Below are positions 49,979-64,000 of a stretch of DNA of 64,000 bases, in pieces. The stretch spans positions 1 to 64,000 of the forward strand of contig NZ_NMZQ01000004.1 of NCBI RefSeq assembly GCF_010093125.1, in the 5' to 3' direction. Source of the DNA: Veillonella sp. R32 (GTDB lineage: Bacteria; Bacillota; Negativicutes; Veillonellales; Veillonellaceae). Each line of letters begins with the position of its first letter. The stretch's first letter is position 1. A model generated the notes under the pieces. That model worked only from the letters and a program-made list of their open reading frames with translations, had not been told where the DNA came from and did no database searches. Both the position numbers and the translations under genes were made by a program.

Positions 49979-50013
49979 TCGATTAATGTGTATGAATTGA
50001 AGGAGGAACAATA

Positions 50014-50349
50014 ATGTTCGGTAAAGGTATGCCAAATATGGGCAATATGCAAGGTATGATGAAAAAAGTACAGAAAATGCAAGCAGACATGCAGAAAATG
50101 CAGGAAGAATTAAAAACTAAGACGGTAGATGCCTCTGTTGGTGGCGGTGCCGTTACTATCGTAATGAATGGTGAAAAAATCGTACAATCTGTTAAAATCG
50201 ATCCATCTGTAGTAGATACAGAGGATATGGAAATGTTAGAAGACTTAGTATTATCCGCCGTTAATGCAGCTGGTCAAAAAGTTGACGACATGATGGCTCA
50301 AGAAATGAGTAAAGTAACTGGCGGCATGAAATTACCAGGGTTGTTCTAA
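50014..50349 (+). CDS. ybaB: Nucleoid-associated protein, YbaB/EbfC family
   Basis: 111 aa, AAGGAGG upstream. N-terminal Met/Gln-rich coiled coil ([18 protein letters not shown]), then the YbaB core [21 protein letters not shown]. Binds DNA as a dimer. Lies between dnaX and recR, the conserved order. Confidence 0.96.
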
Positions 50350-50350
50350 A

Positions 50351-50941
50351 ATGGCCAATCCGTTAGAACGGTTAGTAGAAGAATTGCGCCGTTTGCCTGG
50401 CATTGGCGCTAAATCGGCGCGACGCTTAGCGTATCATTTAGTGGAGCTTCCGAAGGAAGACGTGGATGCGCTCGTAGATACCATTGTACAAGCTAAAGAG
50501 GCCACTAAGCGTTGTTCCATTTGTTTTAACTTATCGGCTCAAGATCCTTGTGAATACTGTGCCAATGAGAATCGTGACCACAGCATAATTTGTGTAGTGG
50601 AAACGTCGCGAGATGTGATTGCTATTGAGCGCAGTGGTGATTATAAAGGGGTATATCATGTGCTCGAAGGGGCCCTATCGCCACTGGAAGGTATTGGCGT
50701 AGAAGATATTCGCATTAAAGAATTATTAGACCGCTTGCGGGATGAAACGGTGACTGAAGTCATTTTAGCGACTGATCCTGACCCTGAAGGGGAAGCAACG
50801 GCGTTGTATTTGGCACGGTTGCTGAAGCCTATTGGTATAAAAGTGACGCGCATTGCTCGTGGTGTACCGGTAGGTGGAGACATTGAATATGCAGATGAGT
50901 TAACTATCGGCGGAGCTGTTATGAACCGCCGAGAAATGTGA
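50351..50941 (+). CDS. recR: Recombination mediator RecR
   Basis: 196 aa, one base after ybaB. Helix-hairpin-helix LRRLPGIGAKSARRLAYHLV, zinc finger CSICFNLSAQDPCEYC, and Toprim domain with VVETSRDVIAIE and ILATDPDPEGEATALYL. Works with RecO/RecF loading RecA at gaps. Normal length. Confidence 0.97.
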   Translation: MANPLERLVEELRRLPGIGAKSARRLAYHLVELPKEDVDALVDTIVQAKEATKRCSICFNLSAQDPCEYCANENRDHSIICVVETSRDVIAIERSGDYKGVYHVLEGALSPLEGIGVEDIRIKELLDRLRDETVTEVILATDPDPEGEATALYLARLLKPIGIKVTRIARGVPVGGDIEYADELTIGGAVMNRREM

Positions 50942-50950
50942 GGCTTTTAG

Positions 50951-51184
50951 ATGGATTTAATAGTAACAGCCGTCGTTGCTGTCGTCGTTATTTATACGAT
51001 TTTTAAAGTGGCATTTTATACCGTAAAAAAGGTAGGCTTAAATTTAATTTTAGGCTATGCTGCGTTTTATATTTGTAATAATTTCTTCCATATCCCTGTG
51101 GATATGACAGTGCTCATGTGGTTTTTAACAGCAGTATTAGGGCCAATCCCTGTCATTGTGGTGGCTCTTATGCATAGTATGTAA
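50951..51184 (+). CDS. BofA-like (pro-sigma-K processing inhibitor family) membrane protein
   Basis: 77 aa, two or three hydrophobic segments and the family-type stretch VGLNLILGYAAFYICNNFFHIPVDMTV. Position after recR equals that of bofA in Bacillus. BofA restrains sigma-K processing during sporulation; nothing in this window indicates sporulation, so the role here is unclear. Confidence 0.75.
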   Translation: MDLIVTAVVAVVVIYTIFKVAFYTVKKVGLNLILGYAAFYICNNFFHIPVDMTVLMWFLTAVLGPIPVIVVALMHSM

Positions 51185-51199
51185 GGAGGCTAAGAGACC

Positions 51200-53770
51200 A
51201 TGTCGCAGTTAAACGAAGCCCAACAGCGTGTAGTGACAACGTTGGACAAGAATATACTGTTATTGGCCTCAGCTGGCACTGGAAAAACGAATACCTTGGC
51301 TCACCGGGTAGCTCACATTTTACAAAGTGGAGCGGCAAAAGGCGATGAAATTCTCTGCATGACCTTTACGAATAAGGCGTGCCGTGAAATGAAAGAACGC
51401 ATTTTAACCATGGCGGGGTCAGTGGCTAAAGCTGTGGAGGTTAGTACCTTTCACAGCTTTTGTTATAAAGTGCTACAAGAGGAAAGTAAGCGCAATGACA
51501 CGCTGTATATGGATATGTCTATTTATGACGAAGTCGATTGTCAGGAATTATTAGCCCCTTGGCTCCCCATAGGCATGCGGGAACCGGTGTTTATGAATCT
51601 AATTAGCCATGTGAAGGAATATCGGTCATTATGGGGTATGTATACAGATACACCAGCTGACGATTATCGCCATACCATTGATCGTTTGTTCTTAGAGCAA
51701 CGGGACACGATGGAACGATTTTTTAATGGCCTTACGATGAGTACGTTGGCCGATTTTCGTGAAACGGGCTATAAAACGTTAATAGCCTATGAAGAAGCGT
51801 TAGCTAATGTGCATGGTGTAGATTTCACGGATCTAATTACACAGGTTCATCGTTTATTTCAAGAAGAATCGATTCGTGAACGGTGGCGCAGTCGCTATTC
51901 GTATATTTCTGTTGACGAAATGCAAGATACTAGTGATTTAGAAGCAGAAGTGATGAAACTGCTTTGGCAGGGCAATCACATTTTGCTTTGTGGTGATTAT
52001 TTTCAAACGATTTACGAGTGGCGCGGGTCTAATCCAGAGCGCTTATTGGCTGCCTATAAACAAGAATTTCAGCCAGAAGTCATTGTGTTTTATGAAAATT
52101 ATAGAGCCAATCGACAGCTTTTTGATGTTTCTTTTGCCGTATTGCAACGCATGTTTCCTCGCTTGATTAATGAGTTTTATGAAAAGCCACCTTTTGCAGC
52201 GACTAAAGAAGAAGGGGAACCCATTATCGTCCATAAGGCACCTACGGAGTGGAAAGAAGGGGCTTATATTTTCGATATGATTCAAACCTTACCTAAAGAG
52301 GCAAATATTGGTGTCTTGGTGCGTAGTAATAAACAAGCTCAGTATTTGAGTGCTTTATTTAGTCGTTGTAATGATAATTTGCCCCCTGCGGAGCAACGAC
52401 AATTTATGATTATCGATGAATATAAATTCTTCCGACGTCAAGAAATCAAAGATGTGATGGCCTATTTTAAATTGCTTTTAAACCCTCATGATGCCCTAAG
52501 TGCTAAGCGTTTAATCAAGCGCTATGTAAAAGGGATTGGGGAGGCTCGGATTCAGCAGATTGAAAGCGAAACAGTGCGCACTATGGGCCTTCGATTGACT
52601 GACTTTTTAGATATGCAGATTTTTGAAAGCGAGCCTTACGATGGACTTATAAAAGGTTTAGCAGCGGGTAATATTATTGTGTATGATGTGGAAAGCACGG
52701 GCACAGATACGACTAAGGACGAAATTATTCAGATTGCAGCCTTTAAATTGAAGCCTGATGGCTCAGAAGGAGCCGTCTTTGAACGCTTTATTCGGCCTAG
52801 TAAGCCCGTTGGTGATTCGGAGTTGGTTCATGGATTTAGCGATGCCTATTTAGCTGACCATGGTGAAGACGCAGCCACTGTGTTAGCTGAGTTTAAAGAA
52901 TTTACCAAGGGTGCTATTATTGTGGGGCATAATGTAAACTATGATATTAGCATTTTTACGAGTGAACTACATCGTCACAATTTAGGAGACCCGCAATTTG
53001 CAGGCGTCTATGATACCTTAGATATATATCGCCGGTTTTATCCGCGCTTAGCCAATCATAAATTAGGATTTTTAAGTGAAACGTTTCCTATTAACTACAC
53101 GCCTACGCACAATGCTATGGATGATATTCGCGCTACAGCACGATTATTGTTGTATGCGATTGAAAAGAATATTGAGCCCACCGCTGATCAACGTAGAGCC
53201 TTGATTAGTAATTTTAAAAATGCTTTTGCTACTATGGCTTCACAAATGGCTACGTTGCGGCGTAAAATTGTAACGGATAAACCGTCAGCCCTATTGGCTT
53301 ATATTATGAAAGATATGGGCGTTTTGGCGTATTATACTGAGCGACGAGAACATGAGCGCGTTGAGTATATTCGTGATTTATATCGCCTTATGGTAGAGTT
53401 AGAAGGGCAAGATAGCCACTTAGCTGGTCGTGAATATTTACAACGCATGTTGGAACAAGCCGCTTTGACGGCTGGTGAACCGGATCAACGGTTGAAAAAT
53501 AATGACCGCATTCCTATCATTACGGTACATCAAGCTAAGGGCAGTGAATTTGATTACGTCTTTTTAGCTGGTCTGCGGGAAGGCGTATTCCCTAGCTTTT
53601 TAGCGCTAAAAGAAGGGAAACGTTCAGAAGAACAACGATTATTTTATGTAGCGATTACGCGCGCTAAACAGCGTTTATTTATTTCCTATGCATCGACCAA
53701 TGATCGTGGGAAGCCTTGTAAAGCAAGTGAGTTTTTACAATATTTACCGAATAGTGTTGTATGGGAATAA
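51200..53770 (+). CDS. UvrD/PcrA-type helicase with an embedded DEDDh exonuclease domain
   Basis: 856 aa, AAGGAGG upstream. Superfamily 1A helicase motifs: ASAGTGKTNT (residues 23-32), VDEMQDTSD, GDYFQTIYEWRGSNPERL, then near the C-terminus ITVHQAKGSEFDYVFLAGL and FYVAITRAKQRLF. Between motifs IV and V an intact DnaQ-like domain occupies about 491-655: Asp496 and Glu498 (VYDVEST), Asp582 (HNVNYDISIF), His637 and Asp641 (THNAMDDIRAT), the full DEDDh set. It probably unwinds and trims DNA 3'-5' in repair. It follows the recR region on the same strand and may be co-transcribed. Confidence 0.9.
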   Translation: MSQLNEAQQRVVTTLDKNILLLASAGTGKTNTLAHRVAHILQSGAAKGDEILCMTFTNKACREMKERILTMAGSVAKAVEVSTFHSFCYKVLQEESKRNDTLYMDMSIYDEVDCQELLAPWLPIGMREPVFMNLISHVKEYRSLWGMYTDTPADDYRHTIDRLFLEQRDTMERFFNGLTMSTLADFRETGYKTLIAYEEALANVHGVDFTDLITQVHRLFQEESIRERWRSRYSYISVDEMQDTSDLEAEVMKLLWQGNHILLCGDYFQTIYEWRGSNPERLLAAYKQEFQPEVIVFYENYRANRQLFDVSFAVLQRMFPRLINEFYEKPPFAATKEEGEPIIVHKAPTEWKEGAYIFDMIQTLPKEANIGVLVRSNKQAQYLSALFSRCNDNLPPAEQRQFMIIDEYKFFRRQEIKDVMAYFKLLLNPHDALSAKRLIKRYVKGIGEARIQQIESETVRTMGLRLTDFLDMQIFESEPYDGLIKGLAAGNIIVYDVESTGTDTTKDEIIQIAAFKLKPDGSEGAVFERFIRPSKPVGDSELVHGFSDAYLADHGEDAATVLAEFKEFTKGAIIVGHNVNYDISIFTSELHRHNLGDPQFAGVYDTLDIYRRFYPRLANHKLGFLSETFPINYTPTHNAMDDIRATARLLLYAIEKNIEPTADQRRALISNFKNAFATMASQMATLRRKIVTDKPSALLAYIMKDMGVLAYYTERREHERVEYIRDLYRLMVELEGQDSHLAGREYLQRMLEQAALTAGEPDQRLKNNDRIPIITVHQAKGSEFDYVFLAGLREGVFPSFLALKEGKRSEEQRLFYVAITRAKQRLFISYASTNDRGKPCKASEFLQYLPNSVVWE

Positions 53771-53851
53771 GCGTATAGTTTAGGCGTTACCTTCATTCGT
53801 TGAAGGGACGCACTATTATATAAAAGAAGCTACGGGACGAGGAGGTGTTGT

Positions 53852-54778
53852 ATGGCACGTAAAACTTGGCGCTCTGATGATGTAAATTTTTTATTAATGC
53901 CGGAAGAAGTGGCTGCTGGTATTACAACGGTAGGCGAATGGTTAGATGCAAAACATATGTCGCGGTCTGTGATGAAGCAGTTGTTTCAGGAAAAATTAGT
54001 CTTGTTAAATGGTAAAAAAACAAATCCAAAGGCGGCAGTGGCTTTGAGTGACGAACTTCGGTTACAGATGCCAAAAGAAAAACTAGACTATGAGCCTATA
54101 GAAGTGGCGTTGACTATTTTATATGAAGATGAGGATTTACTTATTTTAGATAAGCCCGTAGGCATTACGGTGAACTCTAAAGGGCAAGTATCTTTGGCTA
54201 ATGGGGTGGCACAGTATTTTAAAGCTAATGGTATTAAGCGTAAAGTACGCTTTTTAAATCGTTTGGATCGCGATACCTCAGGTTGTATTATTGTAGCGAA
54301 GAGTGGTTTAGCGCAGAGCTTTTATCAGAAGCAGATTGAAGAGCAACGCTTTGAAAAATGGTATACGACAACCGTGCAAGGCCGTTTAGAAGGGGTCAAT
54401 ATCGTGGAACTTCCTATGGGACGGAGTGAAGACGGTATTCATTATGAAGTGCGTGAGGATGGTAAAATGACACGGACCGCTTATAATGCTTTGGGGCTCT
54501 ATATAGATGAGGGGGCAACATTAAGACGAGTGAATAGTGAAGAATTAGCCCAATTATCAGCGGTTGATGCTGATAAGTTAGTGACTAAAGTGGATGTGCG
54601 GTTGTATACGGGTAAAACCCATCAAATTCGCGTTGCCATGGCTCATTTGGGGCATCCTTTAGTAGGTGATGCGCTGTATGGCTGTGAACGACCAGGACGA
54701 ACGTATCAGTTGCGGGCAAAACGAGTCGTCTTTACTTCTTTGCGGACGGGTCAAATGGTGACCGTAGAAGCTGATTAA
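53852..54778 (+). CDS. RluA-family 23S rRNA-type pseudouridine synthase
   Basis: 308 aa, GGAGG upstream. N-terminal S4-like region (about residues 25-75: VGEWLDAKHMSRSVMKQLFQEKLVLLNGK), then the catalytic motif NRLDRDTSG (136-144, catalytic Asp141) and YTGKTHQIRVAMAHLGHPLVGDALYG. Converts uridine to pseudouridine in RNA, target site unknown (RluD-like). Followed by the 3'-UTR cassette at 54808. Confidence 0.92.
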   Translation: MARKTWRSDDVNFLLMPEEVAAGITTVGEWLDAKHMSRSVMKQLFQEKLVLLNGKKTNPKAAVALSDELRLQMPKEKLDYEPIEVALTILYEDEDLLILDKPVGITVNSKGQVSLANGVAQYFKANGIKRKVRFLNRLDRDTSGCIIVAKSGLAQSFYQKQIEEQRFEKWYTTTVQGRLEGVNIVELPMGRSEDGIHYEVREDGKMTRTAYNALGLYIDEGATLRRVNSEELAQLSAVDADKLVTKVDVRLYTGKTHQIRVAMAHLGHPLVGDALYGCERPGRTYQLRAKRVVFTSLRTGQMVTVEAD

Positions 54779-54807
54779 AAGCATAAGAAATATATGTCAA
54801 GATGGGG

Positions 54808-54875
54808 TTATAGGACAAAATGTGTTGCTCAAAAGGTCGATGAAACTAGTATTTAATTGGTTTCATCGGCCTTTT
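54808..54875 (+). terminator. 3'-UTR element plus terminator, copy 1
   Basis: A 23-nt element (54808-54830, core TATAGGACAAAAT then TTGCTC) directly precedes the hairpin AAAAGGTCGATGAAAC / GTTTCATCGGCCTTTT. Both element and hairpin are homologous to 63844-63906 on the other strand. Confidence 0.8.
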
Positions 54876-55058
54876 AATTTTATGTAAGGACCTAGTTTTG
54901 ATATAGGGGCTGACATAGCAAAAAGTCGTAAAAAATACAAGTTTGTTCCATTGATAGCATAAACTTGTAAAAATAAAAAGGTTTTGCTATGATGGGCGTA
55001 AAATTTGGATTATTAAAATATATAAAGAGAGTGTATTAAATAAGGGAGTGAAGCAATA

Positions 55059-55595
55059 GTGGATATTATGGCTATAGTGTATATAATTCTTCCCGCTTTA
55101 GTTGGAAGTGTATGTGCAATAGGTGTTAATTGGGTAAGAGATTTCTATAGTGTTAGTAAAAAGATTGAAGAAAATAGAAAAGTGGCAGTTTTTAATATGA
55201 TAAATAGAGTAAGGGAGTTTAGATTTTTAACAAAAATATTATATATGGATCATAATGATGCTATATCATCAGCTCAACGAGGTGAAGATGGTAGATTTTT
55301 TTGTTTTAATGGAAGGTTTTTAAGAGCGGAAGATATTATTTTATTGAATACTGAAATTCAACGAATTGAATTGATTAATCAAGAAATTATATTTAAATAT
55401 TTGGCATTAGCAAGAAAAGCAATATATTTAAAGAGTGGTATAAAAAGTATGTATAATGTATTGGATGAAGATATAGCGTTTAAAGAGATAAAGAAAGAGT
55501 TATTAAAGGTATTGGAAGATGCACTAGAAGTAGAGAAGTGTATACAAAAAGAATATAAGATAAAACTTATTGATGAAGTTTGGGAAAATCATTAA
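55059..55595 (+). CDS. Hypothetical membrane-anchored protein
   Basis: 178 aa, GTG start with GGGAGTGA upstream (an ATG three codons later is also possible). One N-terminal transmembrane helix (IMAIVYIILPALVGSVCAIGVNW), then about 150 residues that are largely helical and charged, likely cytoplasmic. No family recognised. Very AT-rich and enclosed by terminators, so probably an independently acquired gene. Confidence 0.6.
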   Translation: MDIMAIVYIILPALVGSVCAIGVNWVRDFYSVSKKIEENRKVAVFNMINRVREFRFLTKILYMDHNDAISSAQRGEDGRFFCFNGRFLRAEDIILLNTEIQRIELINQEIIFKYLALARKAIYLKSGIKSMYNVLDEDIAFKEIKKELLKVLEDALEVEKCIQKEYKIKLIDEVWENH

Positions 55596-55597
55596 AC

Positions 55598-55648
55598 AAA
55601 AAGGATGTAGGTCTTATTGTAATTAAAGAGACCTGCATCCTTTTTAGT
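55598..55648. terminator. Terminator between the hypothetical gene and the transporter gene
   Basis: AAAAAGGATGTAGGTCT pairs with AGACCTGCATCCTTTTT; suits the plus-strand gene and the convergent transporter gene. Confidence 0.85.
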
Positions 55649-55694
55649 TAGTTGAAAAATGTAGTTGAAAGAGTATTACAAATTTTTAATACCA

Positions 55695-56957
55695 TTAAAC
55701 AATAAAAGATAATATAAAACTTACCCCAATACCTACTAATAGAGCAGGACGTTCCCACTTATTAGCTAGTTTTTGGTTAGTTCCAGGAATTACACCAGCA
55801 ACAACTGGTAAAGCGGTTAGAGCACCACCAGTAAGGAATAATTGCATAATAGCAGCACCCATGATCGCGGCAAAACTTATGGACATTGGATCTAAATTCA
55901 TGCCTATTAAAATTTGAACGAATGGGAGAATAATAGCTGCTGAAGCTGCATTGGATTGTGTGATTAGCCCTGCGACTGTAGAAATAATAAAGAGTATTTG
56001 AATAGGAGCGATAGCTAAGAAAGGTTTTAAGTATTCTGATAAGACACTTACTAATCCAATTTTATTAATTACTACAGACATAAACATCAAACTAATGATA
56101 GCTACTATAGGAATTGCAATTTGAGCAACGCCTGATATCATAGCTTTTTCTCCATCTGCTAAAGAGTATTTAGCCATGATAATAACAAGAATACTACATA
56201 CAAAACCAACAATAAATACAGGTACACCCATAAAGAAAGCAATACATAAGGCTAAAAATGGTAAAACTGCTTTTGTAAAACTTGGAGCATCATCTGGTAA
56301 TATAAAATCTTTATTTGAATTTGCATTTTCTATATCAGGAATATGATGTCCTTCTGTTTTCATTTCTTTTTTAGCACGCCAATAAGCAAAAATATAAATG
56401 CCTATACTACCTACAAGCCCCCAAACATTAATTAGGCCGAAAGAGATTCCTGTTAACCCTAGTATTGCTAGCATTGTAGGATGTGTAAAACCACAAGAGT
56501 TTGCTACTGTATTAGCCATAGAAATAATGGCTGCTGTTTTATTAGGATGTAAACCGAGTCTGGTAGCAGCAGGTCCTGCTATAGTAGCAGTGATTACAGG
56601 TTGAGTAAATGCGGTTAAAGCGCCAAGTAAAGCCGCCGCTAAGCCCGCAGCTGTTGCGATTCCTGGGGCACCACCTTTTTGTTTACCGACTTCCATAATT
56701 TTATAAATAATAACATTTAGAAAACCACTTTTTTGCATAATGCCAATGAATAATAGAACTCCTAGCATATCGATTAGGACCGGGTTCATTGCAGCAATAA
56801 GTAATTTGCCTACGGAATTAGGATCTTTACCAATAAGAGGAAAACCAGCGGCAATAGCGGCTAAAGTACTACCGATAGTCGCTGTAATATAGAGTGGCGC
56901 ACGACCGAGTATCATAACTAATAAGGTAAGAAGCATAATTATTTGGGCGGCTATCAT
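55695..56957 (-). CDS. Ion-transporter-superfamily carboxylate transporter
   Basis: 420 aa, AAGGAGG upstream. About eleven hydrophobic segments, with repeated features MNPVLIDMLGVLLFIGIMQKSG, GALTAFTQPVITATIAGPAATRLGL and ITQSNAASAAIILPFVQILIG, as in GntP/CitMHS-like transporters of the IT superfamily. Probably imports an organic acid or its amide. Last gene of an operon with the DUF2848 and nitrilase genes. Confidence 0.75.
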   Translation of the reverse strand: MIAAQIIMLLTLLVMILGRAPLYITATIGSTLAAIAAGFPLIGKDPNSVGKLLIAAMNPVLIDMLGVLLFIGIMQKSGFLNVIIYKIMEVGKQKGGAPGIATAAGLAAALLGALTAFTQPVITATIAGPAATRLGLHPNKTAAIISMANTVANSCGFTHPTMLAILGLTGISFGLINVWGLVGSIGIYIFAYWRAKKEMKTEGHHIPDIENANSNKDFILPDDAPSFTKAVLPFLALCIAFFMGVPVFIVGFVCSILVIIMAKYSLADGEKAMISGVAQIAIPIVAIISLMFMSVVINKIGLVSVLSEYLKPFLAIAPIQILFIISTVAGLITQSNAASAAIILPFVQILIGMNLDPMSISFAAIMGAAIMQLFLTGGALTALPVVAGVIPGTNQKLANKWERPALLVGIGVSFILSFIV

Positions 56958-56999
56958 GGGGAACCTCCTTTATAAAATTTTATAGTGAATTACTATTAA

Positions 57000-57671
57000 T
57001 TAGTGTTCGTTGATGATTTGAATTTTATAATTTAGGTTAATAGTACGATTTAGTTTTTCATCAATTAATTGGCAAGAGAAAGCTTCTCCATATTGGAAGC
57101 CGTTCTTTAGAGGTACTGTACCAGTAAAAATTAGGCTATTTTCAATATCTATTTCTTTTTTTAGAGTGTTGATTATTGTATCTAAAGATAGTAGATCTGA
57201 AGTTAAGCCTTGTTGATAATCTATAGTTTGGCCATTTAAAATCTGTGTTGATTTTAGCTTAATGTTATCAAAATGATTTTTTATCTCTTCATAAGGCCAG
57301 AACGTTGTCGCAAAGGGTTTTAAGCAAAGTTGCTTTGATTTATGGATACTTACTGCTTCTAATTCGCGATCGGTATGGTCGCTACCTACGCCTATATAAT
57401 AATTACCCTCATGAACTAGAATAAGGTATTCTACTTCACCGCTTGTTTTATTACCAATCACTTCAATATTGTCTGAAGTGGTTAATAATTCTTTTGAACA
57501 TTGATAAAGAACAGGGACTGATTTTGGACATTTTATTCCTTCTTCTTCTAATTCACGGATATGTTCCATAGTTTTATCTATATCTTTACCTGCAAATCCA
57601 ACAACTAATAAATGATTTAATTGTAGATCAAGAGATTTAGTGCTATTTAAAGTTTCGATAGTAATATTCAT
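57000..57671 (-). CDS. DUF2848 family protein
   Basis: 223 aa, AAGGAG upstream. LLVVGFAGKDIDKTMEHIRELEEEGIKCPKSVPVLYQCSKELLTTSDNIEVIG is characteristic of DUF2848, which is distantly related to the fumarylacetoacetate hydrolase fold; later YYIGVGSDHTDRELE and SLIFTGTVPLKNGFQYGEAFSCQL fit. A hydrolase of a carboxylate intermediate is likely by fold, but no reaction is known to me. Sits between the nitrilase-like and transporter genes. Confidence 0.7.
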   Translation of the reverse strand: MNITIETLNSTKSLDLQLNHLLVVGFAGKDIDKTMEHIRELEEEGIKCPKSVPVLYQCSKELLTTSDNIEVIGNKTSGEVEYLILVHEGNYYIGVGSDHTDRELEAVSIHKSKQLCLKPFATTFWPYEEIKNHFDNIKLKSTQILNGQTIDYQQGLTSDLLSLDTIINTLKKEIDIENSLIFTGTVPLKNGFQYGEAFSCQLIDEKLNRTINLNYKIQIINEH

Positions 57672-57736
57672 GGAGAAACTCCTTTTCTTTAATTTAAGGT
57701 TATAAGGTTAATTAACTTAAAAAAATAATTTATAGT

Positions 57737-58528
57737 TTATAGTTTATATAAATCAGGTTTTCTATCTCTGAAGACATTAATTGATTCTCTAATATCTTTG
57801 ATAATACTTACATCAATATTGCCATAACCAATACTTTCGGTTTCATTGAGATGGCATAGTTCGTCACCCCAAGGATTAATAAGTAAAGAATTACCGCCAT
57901 AAATGGTATTTTCTGTTTTGCTACAAGCATTAACTGCGCATACATACATTTGATTTTCAATTGCACGTGTAGTGACTAGGTTAATCCAATGTTTTTTTCT
58001 GATTAAAGGCCAATGAGCTGGGACAAACAATAGATCGAGACCTTGTAAAGCGAGAGAACGTACTAATTCACAAAAGCGAATGTCATAGCAAATGATAATG
58101 CCGCATTTTAGCCCCTCTAAATTGAATGTAACTAAGTTTTTACCACCTGTATAATAGTTATGTTCTCCAGAAGGAGTAAAACTATGAATTTTGTCATATT
58201 CAGCAATAAGGTTGCCATTTTTATTAAAAATATAGGCGGTGTTATAAATATTATCATTTTTTAAAGTAGTTACGGATCCCGCCACAATGCTTACTTTATT
58301 TTCTTTTGCATAGGAAGAAAATAAAGTTTTTGTTTGTTCTCCATTTTTATCGGCTAATGATTTTAAATTAGCAGTAGGAAAAAATCCGGTATTAAATGTT
58401 TCGGGAAGGACTAAAATGTCAGGATTCTCTTTCATGGCTTTATTTAGCAAATCTAAAGCATGAGAAAAGTTTTTAGTTGGTTCAGCAAAAGCTGAATCCA
58501 TCTGTATTAATGCAATTTTTGGGTTCAT
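57737..58528 (-). CDS. Nitrilase-superfamily (carbon-nitrogen) hydrolase
   Basis: 263 aa from the ATG at 58528 (AAGGAGT upstream). Catalytic triad visible: Glu43 in VLPETFNTGF, Lys113 in YDKIHSF and Cys147 in ICYDIRF. The pattern resembles omega-amidase/N-carbamoylase-type hydrolases. It should cleave a C-N bond of a small amide. First gene of the minus-strand operon and divergent from the GntR gene. Confidence 0.85.
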   Translation of the reverse strand: MNPKIALIQMDSAFAEPTKNFSHALDLLNKAMKENPDILVLPETFNTGFFPTANLKSLADKNGEQTKTLFSSYAKENKVSIVAGSVTTLKNDNIYNTAYIFNKNGNLIAEYDKIHSFTPSGEHNYYTGGKNLVTFNLEGLKCGIIICYDIRFCELVRSLALQGLDLLFVPAHWPLIRKKHWINLVTTRAIENQMYVCAVNACSKTENTIYGGNSLLINPWGDELCHLNETESIGYGNIDVSIIKDIRESINVFRDRKPDLYKL

Positions 58529-58546
58529 AATTGACTCCTTTTTACA

Positions 58547-58580
58547 ATTGATATACCATTTGGTTAAATTGTATACCAAT
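58547..58580. promoter_or_regulatory. Candidate GntR operator, two TATACCA sites
   Basis: ATTGATATACCA (58547-58558) and ATTGTATACCAAT (58568-58580) share TATACCA 20 bp apart, about two helical turns. The second contains a GTATAC palindrome. They lie 20-50 bases upstream of the amidohydrolase start. Confidence 0.5.
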
Positions 58581-58691
58581 AATGAAAAATAGTCAATAAT
58601 ATTAGAAGTAAATGTAATAATTTATATAAGATGAAGAAATATAAAAGAAGTAGTGATATAATATAAATAAAATATAAAAGTAGGTGAATAT

Positions 58692-59366
58692 ATGAATTTA
58701 GACGACCGAAAATCATTGCAGCAACGTGTATATGTACATTTAAAAGAAGCTATTAATGAACAGATTTATAAGCCTGGAGATATTTTAAATGAGAGAAAAA
58801 TATCTGCGGAATTAAATGTAAGTCGTACTCCTGTTAGAGAGGCATTTAAAGCATTAGAAGCGGAAGATATTGTTGAATATATACCATATCGTGGTGTTAT
58901 GGTAAAATCATTGTCTTCTGAGGATTTAAAATATATTTTTCAAATAAGAGAAGCACTAGAAGTATTAGTTATAAAGCTAGCTATTGATAAGATTAATAAT
59001 GAAACTCTTAGACGCTTACAACAATGTGTAATTAAACAAGAAGATTTGAAGGCAGGAAATGAAAAAAGAATTCAAGAATTTATTAAATTAGATATGGAGT
59101 TTCATAATATTCTTGCTGATACATCAGGAAATCCTTTTTTGAAACAATTAATTTTAGATATTAGGGACAAAGTGGCTAGATTAGGTGTGACAGCTTTATA
59201 TAGTGGGCCACAAAGATTTGAAGAAACAATTGAAGAACACCGTAATATAGTTAGTACCTTAAAGGCAGATGATTCAAAATTAGCTTTAGCTGCGATGGAA
59301 CAACATATTCAAAATACATATGAAAACGCAATGAGGTATATTGAGTCTTTAAATGAAAATAAATGA
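58692..59366 (+). CDS. GntR-family (FadR/FCD subfamily) transcriptional regulator
   Basis: 224 aa. N-terminal winged helix: LQQRVYVHLKEAINEQIYKPGDILNERKISAELNVSRTPVREAFKALEAEDIVEYIPYRGVMV. The C-terminal FCD helical domain has FIKLDMEFHNILADTSGNPFLKQL and the histidines EEHRNIV and EQHIQN typical of metal-binding FCD sites. It probably represses the divergent operon until its organic-acid substrate is present. Confidence 0.9.
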   Translation: MNLDDRKSLQQRVYVHLKEAINEQIYKPGDILNERKISAELNVSRTPVREAFKALEAEDIVEYIPYRGVMVKSLSSEDLKYIFQIREALEVLVIKLAIDKINNETLRRLQQCVIKQEDLKAGNEKRIQEFIKLDMEFHNILADTSGNPFLKQLILDIRDKVARLGVTALYSGPQRFEETIEEHRNIVSTLKADDSKLALAAMEQHIQNTYENAMRYIESLNENK

Positions 59367-59412
59367 AAAACACCCAATAATTAGGTTCTGGCCTAATTAT
59401 TGGGTGTTTTTT
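59366..59412 (+). terminator. Terminator after the GntR gene
   Basis: AAAACACCCAATAATTAG pairs with CTAATTATTGGGTGTTTT, a perfect 18-bp stem immediately after the stop. Confidence 0.9.
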
Positions 59413-59543
59413 CATCATAGGTGTGGAAACAGATATTACTATCTATACAACAAAATTAGAAGACTTATAGTCAAAATAATATTTTTATAATATAATTAAC
59501 AAAGTATTTAATTATATGTTTTTAGGTTGAAGGAGGTTTTACA

Positions 59544-60869
59544 ATGAGTGAAGCGTTACAAGCCACGAAAAGTCGTTTTCTACGCTTGCAGATGCATTCA
59601 TTAATTGGGATATGGATTGGCTATGCTATGTACTATGTAGTGCGTAGTAACTTTAATTTAGCTTTACCATATTTGTCGGGAGAGATGGGATTAACTAAGA
59701 CACAGCTAGGCTTATTGACAAGTTGTATGTTAATTACTTATGGACTTAGTAAAGGTTTTATGAGCGTATTAGCAGATAAAGCAAATCCTAAGTATTTTAT
59801 GGCTACAGGCCTAGCACTTTGTGTTATTATTAACATTATTATGGGGTTCACTACACATTACAGTCTGTTTATTGCACTTATTATTTTATTAGGATTGTTT
59901 CAAGGCATGGGTGTAGGACCTTCTATTATTACTGTAGGCTATTGGTTCCCTCGTTCCCAACGTGGTCGTGCTAGTACAATTTGGAATATGTCACATAATC
60001 TAGGTGGTGGTATTGTAGCGCCTATCGTTGGGGCTGCGGTTGGCTACTTAGGGGCTGAACATTGGCGTATGGGGACTTTTGCGGTACCTGCCTTGTTGGC
60101 CGCTATAGGGGTATTGTTAATTTTATATTTTGTTCGTAAACGTCCGGTCGAAGAAGGTTTACCAACCGTGGAAGAAATGTATCATGAAGAAGCAGCTGGT
60201 CAGAAATCGGCTAAAATGGATAGTGAACGGCCAGAAAATATGAACGCCTTTCATGTATTTTTCCATTACGTTTTTAAAAATCCTAATTCTTGGTATTTAG
60301 TACTTATTGATGTTTTTGTATATATGGTACGCTTTGGTATGTTAACCTGGATTCCATTATACTTGTTAAAAGTAAAAGGTTTCAGCAAAGCGGAAATGAG
60401 CGTGGCCTATATGTTGTTCGAATGGGCAGCTATTCCATCGACAATTATTGCAGGCTATTTAGTTGATAAATACTTCAAAGGTCGCATTATGCAGTTACCT
60501 ATTTATTGCTTAATTGTTATCTTTGCTTGTGTTATCGGCTATATGAATTCGGAGTCTATTTTATGGGCGACTATTTTTGCTTGTATTACGGGTTGTTTAA
60601 TTTACATTCCGCAATCTATGATTCCAGTACAGGCGATGGAAGTTATTCCGACGTTTGCATTAGGATCGGCCGTAGGTTTACGAGGTCTTATGAGTTATTT
60701 AGTAGGTAGCTCTTTGGGAACGACTCTATTTGGCTTTGTTGTGGATCATTATGGCTGGGATATGGGCTTTTATACCTTGCTAGTTGGGGTAGTTCTTTGT
60801 ATGTTTGCTTGTTACTTATCTAATCGTGGTGTTCAAAAGATTTATAAACAAGCAGCTGAGTTAAAATAA
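59544..60869 (+). CDS. OPA-family organophosphate:phosphate antiporter (GlpT/PgtP/UhpT-like)
   Basis: 441 aa, AAGGAGG upstream. Major facilitator with 12 segments. The family motif YYVVRSNFNLALPYLSGEMGLTKTQLGLLTSCMLITYGLSKGFMSVLADK and FQGMGVGPSIITVGYWFPRSQRGRASTIWNMSHNLGGGI match the OPA family. The two arginines (in VRSNFN and, further on, MVRFGML) are the expected phosphate-binding pair. It exchanges a phosphorylated compound such as phosphoglycerate or glycerol-3-phosphate for Pi. Exact substrate not assignable. Confidence 0.85.
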   Translation: MSEALQATKSRFLRLQMHSLIGIWIGYAMYYVVRSNFNLALPYLSGEMGLTKTQLGLLTSCMLITYGLSKGFMSVLADKANPKYFMATGLALCVIINIIMGFTTHYSLFIALIILLGLFQGMGVGPSIITVGYWFPRSQRGRASTIWNMSHNLGGGIVAPIVGAAVGYLGAEHWRMGTFAVPALLAAIGVLLILYFVRKRPVEEGLPTVEEMYHEEAAGQKSAKMDSERPENMNAFHVFFHYVFKNPNSWYLVLIDVFVYMVRFGMLTWIPLYLLKVKGFSKAEMSVAYMLFEWAAIPSTIIAGYLVDKYFKGRIMQLPIYCLIVIFACVIGYMNSESILWATIFACITGCLIYIPQSMIPVQAMEVIPTFALGSAVGLRGLMSYLVGSSLGTTLFGFVVDHYGWDMGFYTLLVGVVLCMFACYLSNRGVQKIYKQAAELK

Positions 60870-60888
60870 AATATAACAAGACAATAAT

Positions 60889-60948
60889 ATGAACCGACTC
60901 TTAAAGTTAGATTTAATAATTTTAAGAGTCGGTTCATAATTTTTTTTA
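60889..60948 (+). terminator. Terminator after the OPA transporter gene
   Basis: ATGAACCGACTCTTAAA (60889-60905) pairs perfectly with TTTAAGAGTCGGTTCAT (60921-60937), followed by a T8 run. Confidence 0.9.
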
Positions 60949-61072
60949 GAAGCGTGTTTTTATAAGAGCATTTTTATATCATTACATTTAACCATATGGG
61001 TGGCCCCATGCTTAGCTATCTTGGTTGCATTTAATAATTCATTTAAAAAGTGAAAATTGTAGAACGATTGAA

Positions 61073-61702
61073 TTAATAATCATTTCTATCTTCATGACTA
61101 TAACCTAAATCTTCATATGTAAATTTAAATTCTTTTTCATGCCAAGTTAGTGCATATTTATATTGCATTTTATGATTATTTTTTACGTGCTCAAGAATTA
61201 AGACATTAGGGTTATTAGGTGTAATTGCAAAATAGCTAGAGCTAGGGGCAGAATCTTGACTAAATGGATTATAATAATTTTTAGTATCTATAAGTGTCAA
61301 AAGAGAGGTTGAAGGTGACTCAGGATATGATGTATATAAATAAGTATAGTTTGGTGTATTAGGTTCAAAGTTGATTATTGTGACAGCATAGAAATTTCGT
61401 TTAGATTGATCATCATGGAAAGCAGAAATAAGGGCTTGGCCACTTTTGAAATTTTCAAGGGGGATAATTTGTGCAATTTTTTTATTAACATATAAAGAAA
61501 ATGTATATTCTGTAAGTTCAGCTGTAATTTTACCATCACTGGTTTTTATCGTATTTGGCTCTGGTTTCATAAATTTATAGACTGGATAGCGGAGTGAATA
61601 GTTACCTTGATAGGTAATTTGAGCGAAACTTAAAGAGGTAAAACTTAGGAAACAGATAAAAACTAATAAAGGAATCCATTTGAACTTGCCGAAGTTTTTC
61701 AT
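61073..61702 (-). CDS. Secreted protein of unknown family (paralogue of 11502-12116)
   Basis: 209 aa, GGAGG upstream. Signal peptide with hydrophobic core WIPLLVFICFLSFTSLSFA. The mature part has ITYQGNYSLRYPVYKFM, DGKITAEL, SLYVNKKIAQIIPLENFKSGQALISAF, KRNFYAV and a C-terminal YALTWHEKEFKF...GYSHEDRND, paralleling the 11.5-kb protein across its length. No cysteine in the mature chain. Stands alone on the minus strand in AT-rich sequence. Function unknown. Confidence 0.7.
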   Translation of the reverse strand: MKNFGKFKWIPLLVFICFLSFTSLSFAQITYQGNYSLRYPVYKFMKPEPNTIKTSDGKITAELTEYTFSLYVNKKIAQIIPLENFKSGQALISAFHDDQSKRNFYAVTIINFEPNTPNYTYLYTSYPESPSTSLLTLIDTKNYYNPFSQDSAPSSSYFAITPNNPNVLILEHVKNNHKMQYKYALTWHEKEFKFTYEDLGYSHEDRNDY

Positions 61703-61967
61703 AATATGACCTCCAATTATTAATACAAAATTTTTTAAAATTGATAATATTATAATTTTAGTATATCATTTTAGGAGATAAAATTGTGAAATATTTATGA
61801 AAGAGTTATAAAGAAAAGCTATTTATTTGGCAGGTATTTCTTACCGAAATATATACTACTAGTAAGCCTCTTTACTAGCTTGGTATAGTTACCTTTAGTA
61901 TAATAAAAGCAAAGAACTACCTATTATAATACAATTGACTAAGAGATTCACCATGAAAGGAGTTTTT

Positions 61968-62945
61968 ATGCGTTACACTACAATTCCTACTACCGATATT
62001 AAAATTTCACCACTTACGGTGGGTTGCATGAGCTTTGGTAAAGATGTACTAGGGCAGAAGTGGAGTTTAAACCCCTCTGAAACATATGATATGGTTAAGT
62101 TAGCTCTTGATTTAGGACTTAATTTCTTTGATACAGCTAATCAATATGGTGACGGCACTAGTGAAGAATATTTAGGACAAGCGCTTAAAAAGCTAGTGAC
62201 TCGTGACCAAGTGGCGATTGCTAGTAAAGTATATTTTAATGAAGGCAAATTATCTAAAGACGCCATTGCCCGTGAAATTGACGGTTCTTTGAAGCGCTTA
62301 GGTACAGATTACCTTGATTTATATATTATTCATCGCTTTGATTATGAAACGCCTGTGGAGGAAACCATGGAAGCGCTACATAATTTAGTGAAAGCAGGCA
62401 AAGTAAGAGCTTTAGGGGCTTCCTCGATGTTCGCGTTTCAGTTTCATACTATGCAACAAGTGGCGGAACGGAATGGTTGGACACCATTTGTGGCTATGGA
62501 AAATCACTATAATTTATTGTATCGTGAAGAAGAGCGTGAAATGATTCCTCTTTGTAAACAACAAGGGGTTATGTTGATGCCTTATAGTCCTTTAGCGGGC
62601 GGGCGATTAGCGCGTACAAATTGGCAAGAAAAAACAAAGCGCAGCGAGATTGATACGATTGCAAAACGTAAATATGATAGTACTGAGGAGCAAGATTTGC
62701 CTATTGTGCAACGGGTCGCTGAATTAGCAAAAACTCACGAGGTTACTATGTCACAAATTGCCTTGGCTTGGCAATGGGCGAAAGGCATTACGGCGCCTAT
62801 CGTAGGGGCTACTAAGGCCAGTCATATTGAAGACGCTGTAAAAGCGCTTGATGTGACTTTAACAGGTGAAGAAGTAACTTATTTAGACGAATTATATGTG
62901 CCTCACAAGATGATGGGCCCTATTCCTGTGCCTGCTGATAAATAA
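61968..62945 (+). CDS. Aldo/keto reductase
   Basis: 325 aa from the ATG at 61968 (AAAGGAG upstream); the frame extends to 61935 without a ribosome site. Catalytic tetrad visible: Asp and Tyr in FDTANQYGDG, Lys in IASKVYF, His in YIIHRFDYETPVEETMEAL. NADPH site IVGATKASHIEDAVKAL near the C-terminus. Reduces small aldehydes or ketones; substrate unknown. Monocistronic, followed by a terminator. Confidence 0.92.
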   Translation: MRYTTIPTTDIKISPLTVGCMSFGKDVLGQKWSLNPSETYDMVKLALDLGLNFFDTANQYGDGTSEEYLGQALKKLVTRDQVAIASKVYFNEGKLSKDAIAREIDGSLKRLGTDYLDLYIIHRFDYETPVEETMEALHNLVKAGKVRALGASSMFAFQFHTMQQVAERNGWTPFVAMENHYNLLYREEEREMIPLCKQQGVMLMPYSPLAGGRLARTNWQEKTKRSEIDTIAKRKYDSTEEQDLPIVQRVAELAKTHEVTMSQIALAWQWAKGITAPIVGATKASHIEDAVKALDVTLTGEEVTYLDELYVPHKMMGPIPVPADK

Positions 62946-62986
62946 ATGGAATCATATTTGAGGTAAATATTTAATAAAATATAAGC

Positions 62987-63077
62987 TTATAGGGCAAAAT
63001 ATCATATAACAAAATATAATACAACATAATAAAAGCAAAAAGGTGTAATCGATGGGAGAATTCGATTACACCTTTTT
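62987..63077 (+). terminator. AT-rich 3'-UTR and terminator after the aldo/keto reductase gene
   Basis: Hairpin AAAAAGGTGTAATCGA (63037-63052) / TCGATTACACCTTTTT (63062-63077). The UTR starts with TTATAGGGCAAAATAT (62987-63002), a possible diverged third copy of the 54808 element, then imperfect CAAAATATMATA repeats. Confidence 0.8.
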
Positions 63078-63110
63078 ACATATTTAGTTTATATATTTAG
63101 TTTGTATAAC

Positions 63111-63545
63111 TTAAGCTAAGCTAGCGCGTAAGAACCAAAGTTGTTTTTCATAGTATGCCAAGTGATCTTCCATAAGGGATACTAAGGCAAAGTTGTCTTC
63201 TTCATCAGCTACGCTACGGATTTCTAAGGCAAGGTCAGACATAAGTTTAAAGTCTGCTTGTAGAATTTCGTATACTTCTTTTACGCTGAAATTGCGACCG
63301 TCTAATTCTTCAATAGACGCGATTTTTAAGTATTCAGATACACGAACCACTGGTTCTTCACCTTTCATTTTTAGAAGTTCTGCGACTGCATCGTAATATT
63401 CGAAGGCATTGTCGTATACACTTTCTAAGTATTCATGAGTTGGTACAAATTGAGAACCAACTACATTGAAGTGTAGGTTGTGTAATTTTACATTCCAGAT
63501 GGCTAAGTTTGCTAAATATTTGTTTACTTCTTGTACGTTTTTCAT
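63111..63545 (-). CDS. dps: Dps-family ferritin-like protein
   Basis: 144 aa, AGGAGG upstream. The inter-subunit ferroxidase residues His25, His37, Asp52 and Glu56 have exactly the spacing of Dps proteins (12, 15 and 4 residues), in LHNLHFNVVG, THEYLESVYDNAFEYYDAVAELLK. It stores iron as ferric oxide using peroxide, protecting DNA. Usually a 12-mer. A PerR/Fur-like box lies about 137-151 bp upstream. Confidence 0.93.
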   Translation of the reverse strand: MKNVQEVNKYLANLAIWNVKLHNLHFNVVGSQFVPTHEYLESVYDNAFEYYDAVAELLKMKGEEPVVRVSEYLKIASIEELDGRNFSVKEVYEILQADFKLMSDLALEIRSVADEEDNFALVSLMEDHLAYYEKQLWFLRASLA

Positions 63546-63837
63546 AATATGCTTCCTCCTAGTTTTGAAACTGACTGTATTTACAGTCCTTTTGATTTAA
63601 AATTATATTTTACAATTTGTGTTGCTTTTTTAGATTAGCAACGAGTTTTTTATTAGCTGGTTAAACTAATTTAGATTCAATTTATAATCATTATCCGTTG
63701 CTATGTGTATATCATAACATAGACAATTATCGATGTCAAATAATTAATAATAATTTTCCGTTAATTTTAAGTATTAGTTTGTTGTATTATTTTTTAGTGA
63801 ATGAATTTTGATTATTTTGTGATTCTTTAATTATACT
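63546..63837 (-). other. dps upstream intergenic region
   Basis: AT-rich; holds the PerR/Fur-like box and presumably the dps promoter. No gene recognised. Confidence 0.4.
63682..63696. promoter_or_regulatory. PerR/Fur-like box upstream of dps
   Basis: TTATAATCATTATCC matches the Per-box consensus TTATAATNATTATAA at 13 of 15 positions and contains the ATAATCATTATC half of the Fur consensus. It lies about 137 bp upstream of the dps start. Confidence 0.6.
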
Positions 63838-63906
63838 AAAAATGGCGATGAACTCAGTTAAACACTAAGTTCATCGCCAGTAAGAGCAACATATTTTGTC
63901 CTATAA
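63838..63906 (-). terminator. 3'-UTR element plus terminator, copy 2
   Basis: Read on the minus strand: the 23-nt element (63906-63884; one mismatch to the 54808 copy), five bases, then hairpin GGCGATGAACT / AGTTCATCGCC (63878-63868 and 63854-63844) and a T run. Starts 12 bases after the stop of the minus-strand membrane protein gene. Confidence 0.8.
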
Positions 63907-63917
63907 GTTTATTTTAA

Positions 63918-64000
63918 TTAACATTTTATACCAGCCGCTTTACGCGCATAGAACCAGTAGGTTAAGACAATTGTAATAACCATAAAGATTAAAATAATAT
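63918..64000 (-). CDS. Membrane protein, C-terminal end only (partial)
   Basis: The minus strand reads open from the window edge to a TAA at 63918-63920, encoding IILIFMVITIVLTYWFYARKAAG followed by IKC. This is a last transmembrane helix with a short positively charged tail, typical of a transporter C-terminus. The rest lies outside the window, so the family cannot be told. Confidence 0.6.
   Translation of the reverse strand, partial: IILIFMVITIVLTYWFYARKAAGIKC

Follow-up and report, generated by a model that had tools for sequence, protein, structure and literature searches.

The window analysed here is a stretch of 64,000 nucleotides from Veillonella sp. R32, and it carries a small cluster in which a carrier, a protein of the DUF2848 family and a C-N hydrolase stand opposite a divergent GntR/FCD regulator. 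An initial annotation of this DNA had claimed four genes, and all four are present at the positions that it gave:

55695-56957, minus strand: carrier of 420 amino acids, the putative importer of an omega-amide or dicarboxylate-like substrate
57000-57671, minus strand: DUF2848 protein of 223 amino acids (PF11010), a candidate for a lactam-opening or tautomerising step
57737-58528, minus strand: Nit2/omega-amidase-like C-N hydrolase of 263 amino acids (PF00795), predicted to hydrolyse an omega-amide
58692-59366, plus strand: divergent GntR/FCD regulator (PF00392 and PF07729), presumably a repressor that senses substrate or product

Along the minus strand the C-N hydrolase gene comes first, the DUF2848 gene follows after a gap of 65 bases, and the carrier gene after one of 42. 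The carrier and the two enzymes do belong to one unit, as had been claimed, and synteny in other genomes agrees with the view that this unit is regulated as a whole.

The strongest clue to the function of the cluster comes from the company that DUF2848 keeps elsewhere. We compared 52 loci. Genomes of the phylum to which the window belongs supplied 28 (the window's own plus 11 and 16 others, all that were found in searches of 398 and 380 genomes), and 24 were hand-picked for variety from 56 matching plasmid records. These loci are related to different degrees and so are not 52 independent events. Their neighbours were labelled by hmmscan of examples, several of them below curated cut-offs (PreA, PxpC, caprolactamase, BenE), and by tblastn for the rest. 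The initial annotation had called for neighbourhood statistics of this kind, and by them 48 of the 52 loci have an amidohydrolase no more than 7 kb away from DUF2848. It is a nitrilase-type enzyme in 30, an amidase-signature enzyme in 15, a caprolactamase/oxoprolinase-type enzyme in 1 and PxpABC only in 2, a third PxpABC set lying beside a nitrilase-type gene. The genome loci hold a C-N hydrolase in 25 cases, PxpABC only in 2 and neither in 1, at a contig end; the plasmid loci hold a C-N hydrolase in 5, an amidase-signature gene in 15 (that of L047 about 6 kb from DUF2848), the caprolactamase/oxoprolinase type in 1 and none of these in 3. Because four kinds of amide- or lactam-opening enzyme swap beside one partner, they would seem to share one kind of intermediate, and the four kinds, together with the several phyla involved, are a stronger argument than the locus count. 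We are confident that DUF2848 and the amidase form one pathway module. Could DUF2848 instead have no catalytic step on the amidase pathway, being regulatory or part of an adjacent, separate pathway? The linkage does rest on co-location, and a few loci have no amidohydrolase in reach; the co-location of all four kinds and the invariance of the putative catalytic residues of DUF2848 make this very improbable.

The DUF2848 protein of the window matches PF11010 with 186.2 bits, against a cut-off of 23.4. It had been described as resembling fumarylacetoacetate hydrolase (FAH) and as without an assigned reaction, and both descriptions stand. As to the reaction, there is no NCBIfam match at an expectation value (E) of 0.01, a literature search for DUF2848 found no paper naming it, and PF11010, IPR021269 and pfam11010 gave three matches, which to judge by their titles deal with malaria or other apicomplexan parasites. 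As to the FAH relationship, a profile of 30 DUF2848 proteins aligned by HHalign with one of 27 FAH proteins reaches 93.6% probability (E 2.1e-7, 182 columns), against at most 1.0% for reversed and 10 column-shuffled controls and 0.4% for an unrelated C-N hydrolase alignment. The PF01557 model gives no match to the window protein at E 0.01. Against solved structures the DUF2848 profile finds weak matches, the best at E 0.031, and we take 9 of the 12 to be FAH-family entries, some of them by name. H37, E40, E79, E81, D98, E105 and K113 are invariant in 30/30 DUF2848 proteins and R102 is kept in 29/30; the columns matching HxxE, ExE, D and the R of DxxxR are invariant in 27/27 FAH proteins. Judged from these profiles and motifs, DUF2848 is a remote member of the FAH superfamily.

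How far does the likeness go? For FAHD1, passages of PMC8398924 and PMC7115867 describe a water held by the H30/E33 dyad, a proton network that includes D102 and K123, a hydrogen-bond network with E71 and R106, and a role for Q109 in steering the substrate carbonyl. DUF2848 shares with FAHD1 and Cg1458 (PF01557; acylpyruvase, oxaloacetate decarboxylase) the HxxE, ExE and DxxxR motifs and a Gly-Thr stretch, all in register, and differs from them in a shorter spacing between ExE and D, in a lysine out of register, for which equivalence of K113 to the FAH lysine is a guess, and in a glutamate for Gln109. By alignment and by motif spacing (D, R at +4, the residue in question at +7), the position of Gln109 corresponds to Glu105, which is Glu in 30/30 DUF2848 proteins and Gln in 26/27 FAH proteins. 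This change may signal a related but different reaction.

The C-N hydrolase matches PF00795 with 153.8 bits (cut-off 23.2). Numbered from the ATG at 58528, its E43, K113, E122 (a second Glu) and C147 are invariant in 15/15 aligned DUF2848-linked hydrolases, the window protein included, so the intact Glu-Lys-Cys triad reported earlier (Glu43, Lys113, Cys147) is well founded. The name amidohydrolase given with it does not apply in the superfamily sense: the protein belongs to the nitrilase (C-N hydrolase) superfamily. Its start is very likely the ATG at 58528 behind a ribosome site, AAAGGAGT, and not the TTG at 58579, because the latter would fall inside the twin sites upstream described below. 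The nearest solved chains by phmmer are 3p8k (named C-N family hydrolase; 179 bits), mouse NIT2 (2w1v; 127.5) and yeast YLR351C (1f89; 119). With the omega-amidases NIT2 and YafV it shares the nitrilase family and the Glu-Lys-Cys triad plus second Glu; it differs in scoring below the curated YafV cut-off and in standing beside DUF2848 and a carrier. An omega-amidase role is our best guess. The window's genome holds 2 C-N hydrolases over the cut-off in 2.24 Mb, and the second, 54% identical and encoded elsewhere (L160:5343-6149, on contig C28 of G000), may be its housekeeping omega-amidase; some way downstream of that gene lie two genes for what look, by eye, like MetQ-type lipoproteins.

What, then, would the shared intermediate be? 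Within 7 kb of DUF2848, the carrier family is present in 13 of the 52 loci, a D-glutamate cyclase family gene in 4, asparaginase in 3 and KorA in 2; just past this limit, L032 has KorA and L022 has the D-glutamate cyclase type. The D-glutamate cyclase family is found in L022, L025, L042, L142 and L143, a caprolactamase-type gene in L022, KorABC-type genes with the module in L030, L032 and L035, and PxpABC 5-oxoprolinase-type genes in L141-L143, once with a C-N hydrolase. The DUF2848 copy of L142 has an in-frame stop. The reaction common to asparaginase and omega-amidase is the removal of an omega-amide. Lactams of the 5-oxoproline type are substrates or products of PxpABC, caprolactamase and D-glutamate cyclase, and a 2-oxo acid would be consumed by KorABC. 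The likeness to a PxpABC operon lies in these three loci, two of them with a D-glutamate-cyclase-type gene; the difference is that no PxpABC-type gene lies within 7 kb of the Veillonella DUF2848, which has a C-N hydrolase and another carrier instead. Because the neighbours include asparaginase, 5-oxoprolinase, the D-glutamate cyclase family and a 2-oxoacid:acceptor oxidoreductase, the substrate class can be narrowed, and the substrate is probably some 2-oxo-acid omega-amide or lactam. The initial annotation had spoken of a substrate not yet described; within the searches made, that remains apt for the reaction, and it is for the substrate class that these neighbours suggest something narrower. 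The most likely candidate is 2-oxoglutaramate, present as its lactam 2-hydroxy-5-oxoproline, since it joins the neighbour clues in being an omega-amide, a 2-oxo acid and a 5-oxoproline-type lactam at once.

We therefore propose, with a probability of about 0.38, that the cluster is an accessory operon that imports 2-oxoglutaramate as the lactam, opens it by DUF2848, cleaves it by the C-N hydrolase and is repressed by the GntR/FCD protein. A passage of PMC10452834 gives 2-oxoglutaramate as 99.7% lactam, a form inert to omega-amidase and slow to open near pH 7.2, so a ring-opening enzyme would be of use; the fate of the lactam, in the words of a passage in a review, "has seldom been explored" (PMC6302742). 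In the scheme we favour, the 420-residue carrier would bring in the omega-amide, as the neighbours of its relatives suggest. DUF2848 would bind the 2-oxo- or 2-hydroxy-acid end on a divalent metal held by E79, E81 and D98, and its H37/E40 dyad, K113 and the family-specific Glu105 would open the lactam or shift it to the open keto form. FAH-type enzymes bind 2-oxo acids through a metal and move protons, and the opening of a 2-hydroxy lactam would fall within that chemistry. The Nit2-like hydrolase, whose family and E43/K113/C147 triad are read from its sequence, would then convert the omega-amide to 2-oxoglutarate and ammonium. The two-step hydrolysis suggested earlier is supported by sequence for the amidase step alone; the DUF2848 step may be a lactam opening or a proton shift instead of a hydrolysis. 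The regulator, to judge from the position and conservation of its two presumed sites, one of them over the -10, would repress the operon until an acid ligand is present.

The carrier is the member whose relatives raise a different possibility. It reaches no Pfam family above cut-off, CitMHS being sub-threshold (E 0.046, 13.3 bits against 31.9). Relatives occur in 9/398 phylum genomes, its own included, four of which (G074, G079, G285, G415) are weak and were left out of the neighbourhood reading, and in 14/200 class genomes; the plasmid collection holds none at E 1e-3. Of 15 carrier loci, 9 have an asparaginase and 6 have DUF2848, with both in L087 and neither in L067. In one set, of 11 loci, all have one or the other (6 and 6, L087 having both), and in the other set asparaginase is present in 3/4. 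The pairs of carrier and asparaginase in related genomes resemble the window cluster in their carrier, which is of the same family at 45-50% identity, and in L085 and L087 also in a GntR relative; they differ from it in having asparaginase in place of DUF2848 and C-N hydrolase. L087 has both sets, arranged as GntR, carrier, asparaginase, DUF2848, C-N hydrolase. A family of about 400-440 amino acids with a GHAGVGHCHSH..IQDDSGG-like stretch near its start also adjoins the carrier (L069:9248-10495, L070:5990-7198, L067:2288-3532, L085:5736-7070), in 3/4 cases between carrier and asparaginase, and three copies tested match no Pfam family above cut-off. In L136:2397-8881, from a genome of the window's order, two C-N hydrolases and two carrier copies surround one DUF2848 gene, with an asparaginase upstream.

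Might the cluster then serve a four-carbon (C4) amide? The keto acid of asparagine is 2-oxosuccinamate. Were it imported, the C-N hydrolase would yield oxaloacetate, and DUF2848 would act second, working like FAHD1 as an oxaloacetate tautomerase/decarboxylase; its product would be pyruvate, a compound that is usable by Veillonella. The asparaginase-family genes in those 9 of 15 carrier loci fit such a route, as do a fumarase/aspartase-superfamily lyase in L069 and a DcuA/B carrier in L070, one occurrence each. The two asparaginases beside the carrier that were tested score best against the type II model, below its cut-off, and FAHD1, which decarboxylates oxaloacetate, has its HxxE dyad and its ExE, D and R residues conserved in DUF2848. 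The neighbours of five-membered-lactam type (PxpABC, D-glutamate cyclase family) misfit a C4 amide, and the Gln whose mutation is reported to have almost abolished the decarboxylase activity of Cg1458 is Glu in 30/30 DUF2848 proteins. On balance we consider the C4 route unlikely.

Another substrate class is brought up by a different set of neighbours. Within the same 7 kb, HpaB-type monooxygenase is present in 6 of the 52 loci, molybdenum (Mo) hydroxylase subunits in 3, PreA-like reductase in 3, Old-Yellow-Enzyme type reductase in 2 and a small cupin in 12; in one more locus a cupin is fused to the C-N hydrolase, and L032 has a BenE-like carrier just below cut-off. DUF2848 might accordingly perform C-C hydrolysis, hydration or enamide cleavage on ring-opened acids of N-heterocycles (pyrrole-2-carboxylate, picolinate or similar), with Veillonella using the product of other microbes. 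We think this distinctly unlikely for the window: the Veillonella operon and its syntenic relatives are without these genes, having carriers, asparaginase and 5-oxoprolinase-type genes as neighbours, and, among the matches listed, the literature showed no paper on a pathway that has a cluster of this kind. DUF2848 may still serve several ring-derived acids across the family, because clusters with HpaB, Mo hydroxylase and ene-reductase exist, and these would feed pyrrole- or pyridine-carboxylate lactams into the same last steps as those proposed for 2-oxoglutaramate. A two-component pyrrole-2-carboxylate monooxygenase has reportedly been described. Nicotine-type pathways offer a likeness, in that an omega-amidase is said to act there on ring-derived 2-oxoglutaramate; they are not known to include a DUF2848 protein.

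Some of these heterocycle-type clusters deserve mention in their own right. The fused cupin is at the C end of a C-N hydrolase on a Priestia megaterium plasmid (L018:8855-10024); elsewhere the small cupin is a separate neighbour of DUF2848. L035 (1-13918), L032 (354-9959) and L030 combine a PreA-like iron-sulfur flavoprotein, cupin, C-N hydrolase, DUF2848 and KorABC-type genes, with Mo hydroxylase genes also in L032 and L035. In L035 there are in addition a BCCT-type carrier, a gene of the MttB family and an acyl-CoA dehydrogenase, for which the glutaryl-CoA dehydrogenase model ranks second and stays below cut-off. These three clusters might encode an as yet undescribed anaerobic pathway for a pyridine- or pyrrole-carboxylate, perhaps an N-methylated one. 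For the clusters with Mo hydroxylase, the breakdown of trigonelline or homarine and the anaerobic breakdown of picolinate were weighed; the literature on homarine catabolism showed no such cluster in the title or abstract start of the matches listed. HpoH of the 2-hydroxypyridine route was considered as a DUF2848 protein and dropped, HpoH being of another kind.

The regulator matches PF00392 with 64.9 bits (cut-off 27) and PF07729 with 96.5 (cut-off 24.3), and a GntR relative (tblastn, E up to 1e-8) lies within 7 kb of DUF2848 in 25/52 loci, the window's included. The sites around the operon are as follows:

58552-58558: operator-like site TATACCA / TGGTATA, downstream of the operon -10
58572-58578: operator-like site TATACCA, overlapping the -10 hexamer
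58568-58596, minus strand: operon promoter-like site TTGACT-17-TACAAT, with 10/12 matches
55600-55645: hairpin AAAGGATG..AGGTCT / AGACCT..CATCCTTTTT, closing the carrier end, read by eye
59366-59411: terminator-like hairpin of 20 pairs, closing the regulator side, with a T run on both strands; the scan called it on the minus strand

The hairpin at the carrier end has a loop too long for the hairpin scan, which did not call it. The twin TATACCA sites of the initial annotation are a pair 20 nucleotides apart, and the other Veillonella with this cluster (L037, in genome G027) has retained both sites and their spacing; the word itself is not rare, with 15 occurrences on both strands of the window, including one at 58880 within the regulator gene. 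The register TTGAC(T/G)-17-TACAAT is also kept in L037. The promoter-like site draws its weight from this conservation and not from its score, 10/12 being a maximum that two further sites of the stretch scanned also reach; 28 promoter-like sites were found there against 21.3 expected. With one operator-like site partly over the -10 and the other just downstream, the arrangement would be the usual one for a repressor.

Where did the cluster come from? It lies within an accessory segment with these approximate limits:

54779-59466: segment that holds the cluster together with a single hypothetical gene

Two relatives with a close PgtP-type gene, G022 and G023, are without this segment. In blastn of window positions 50001-64000 against their loci L161 and L162, matches end at 54778 and 54776 and restart at 59466 and 59515, respectively, and in both genomes the PgtP-type transporter gene comes immediately after a gene for an RluA-type pseudouridine synthase. 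The AT-rich character first reported is evident: GC content is 0.321 in the cluster against 0.396 for the window, and at third codon positions 0.16-0.22 against 0.31-0.37 in three flanking genes. DUF2848 occurs in 2/28 family genomes, both Veillonella (2/7 of the genus). Independent insertion in the two genomes was considered; a single acquisition with later loss or rearrangement is as likely, because the cluster lies near the same helicase gene in both, at about 1.9 kb in the window and about 3.4 kb in G027. Further afield, DUF2848 extends to several phyla of bacteria, and an archaeon, Natrinema, has it in one plasmid record; a scan of viral contigs found no relative. The hypothetical gene of the segment (55059-55595, 178 amino acids) has no Pfam or NCBIfam match at E 0.01. 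A repeat-like stretch at 54915-55001 is the sole part of the segment that matches elsewhere (76-87 bases), downstream of the PgtP gene in G022 and G023.

This distribution bears on whether the enzymes serve catabolism at all. The pair might instead perform metabolite repair, removing spontaneous cyclic or enol by-products of glutamine and asparagine metabolism, without contributing to growth on a substrate from outside. The oxoproline-type neighbours would suit such a task, and a passage of PMC6302742 describes these keto amides as reactive compounds that might lead to metabolic accidents. A dedicated carrier and regulator in the unit, together with its patchy presence in the family, fit catabolism better, and the genome has its second C-N hydrolase elsewhere. 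We regard repair as improbable.

Several observations weigh against uptake and opening of 2-oxoglutaramate as the function of the cluster. The hydrolase reaches no curated subfamily cut-off: it scores 125.7 bits of the 249 needed for PRK10438 (YafV-type), which we take to be the YafV model, and 129.2 of 355 for the deaminated-glutathione amidase model, and it is 30% identical to E. coli YafV, annotated as a 2-oxoglutaramate amidase. For DUF2848, the profile is weak against two single FAH sequences (5.1% and 0.4%), K113 is out of register with the FAH lysine in the profile alignment, and the AlphaFold model, built from two sequences only (the window's and that of L003), has a mean predicted local distance difference test score (pLDDT) of 33.9. 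The chance expectation for the neighbourhood counts is an estimate from the window's genome, about 1% for a C-N hydrolase per 14-kb stretch (2 per 2.24 Mb), and no amidohydrolase lies within 7 kb in 4/52 loci (L019, L024, L038 and L091, the last at a contig end). The clusters with HpaB-type monooxygenase, Mo hydroxylase, PreA-like or Old-Yellow-Enzyme type reductase suggest other substrates for at least part of the family, perhaps six-carbon (C6) ones in view of the acyl-CoA dehydrogenase of L035, and the asparaginase neighbours point equally to C4 amides, which have no such five-membered lactam.

What would the module mean for the DUF2848 family and for Veillonella? A wider, rather doubtful proposal is that the glutaminase-II (transaminase/omega-amidase) route has in DUF2848 its missing enzyme for ring opening, which would convert the inert lactam 2-hydroxy-5-oxoproline and related five- and six-membered 2-carboxy-lactams derived from pyrrole- or pyridine-carboxylates to the open 2-oxo-omega-amide, at an FAH site in which the change from Gln to Glu would handle an N-H and not a C=O. 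The pairing with four kinds of amide-opening enzyme gives DUF2848 a concrete, testable chemistry. If the proposal for the Veillonella cluster is true, the niche of this organism would include the use of outside keto amides as a source of carbon, energy and nitrogen.

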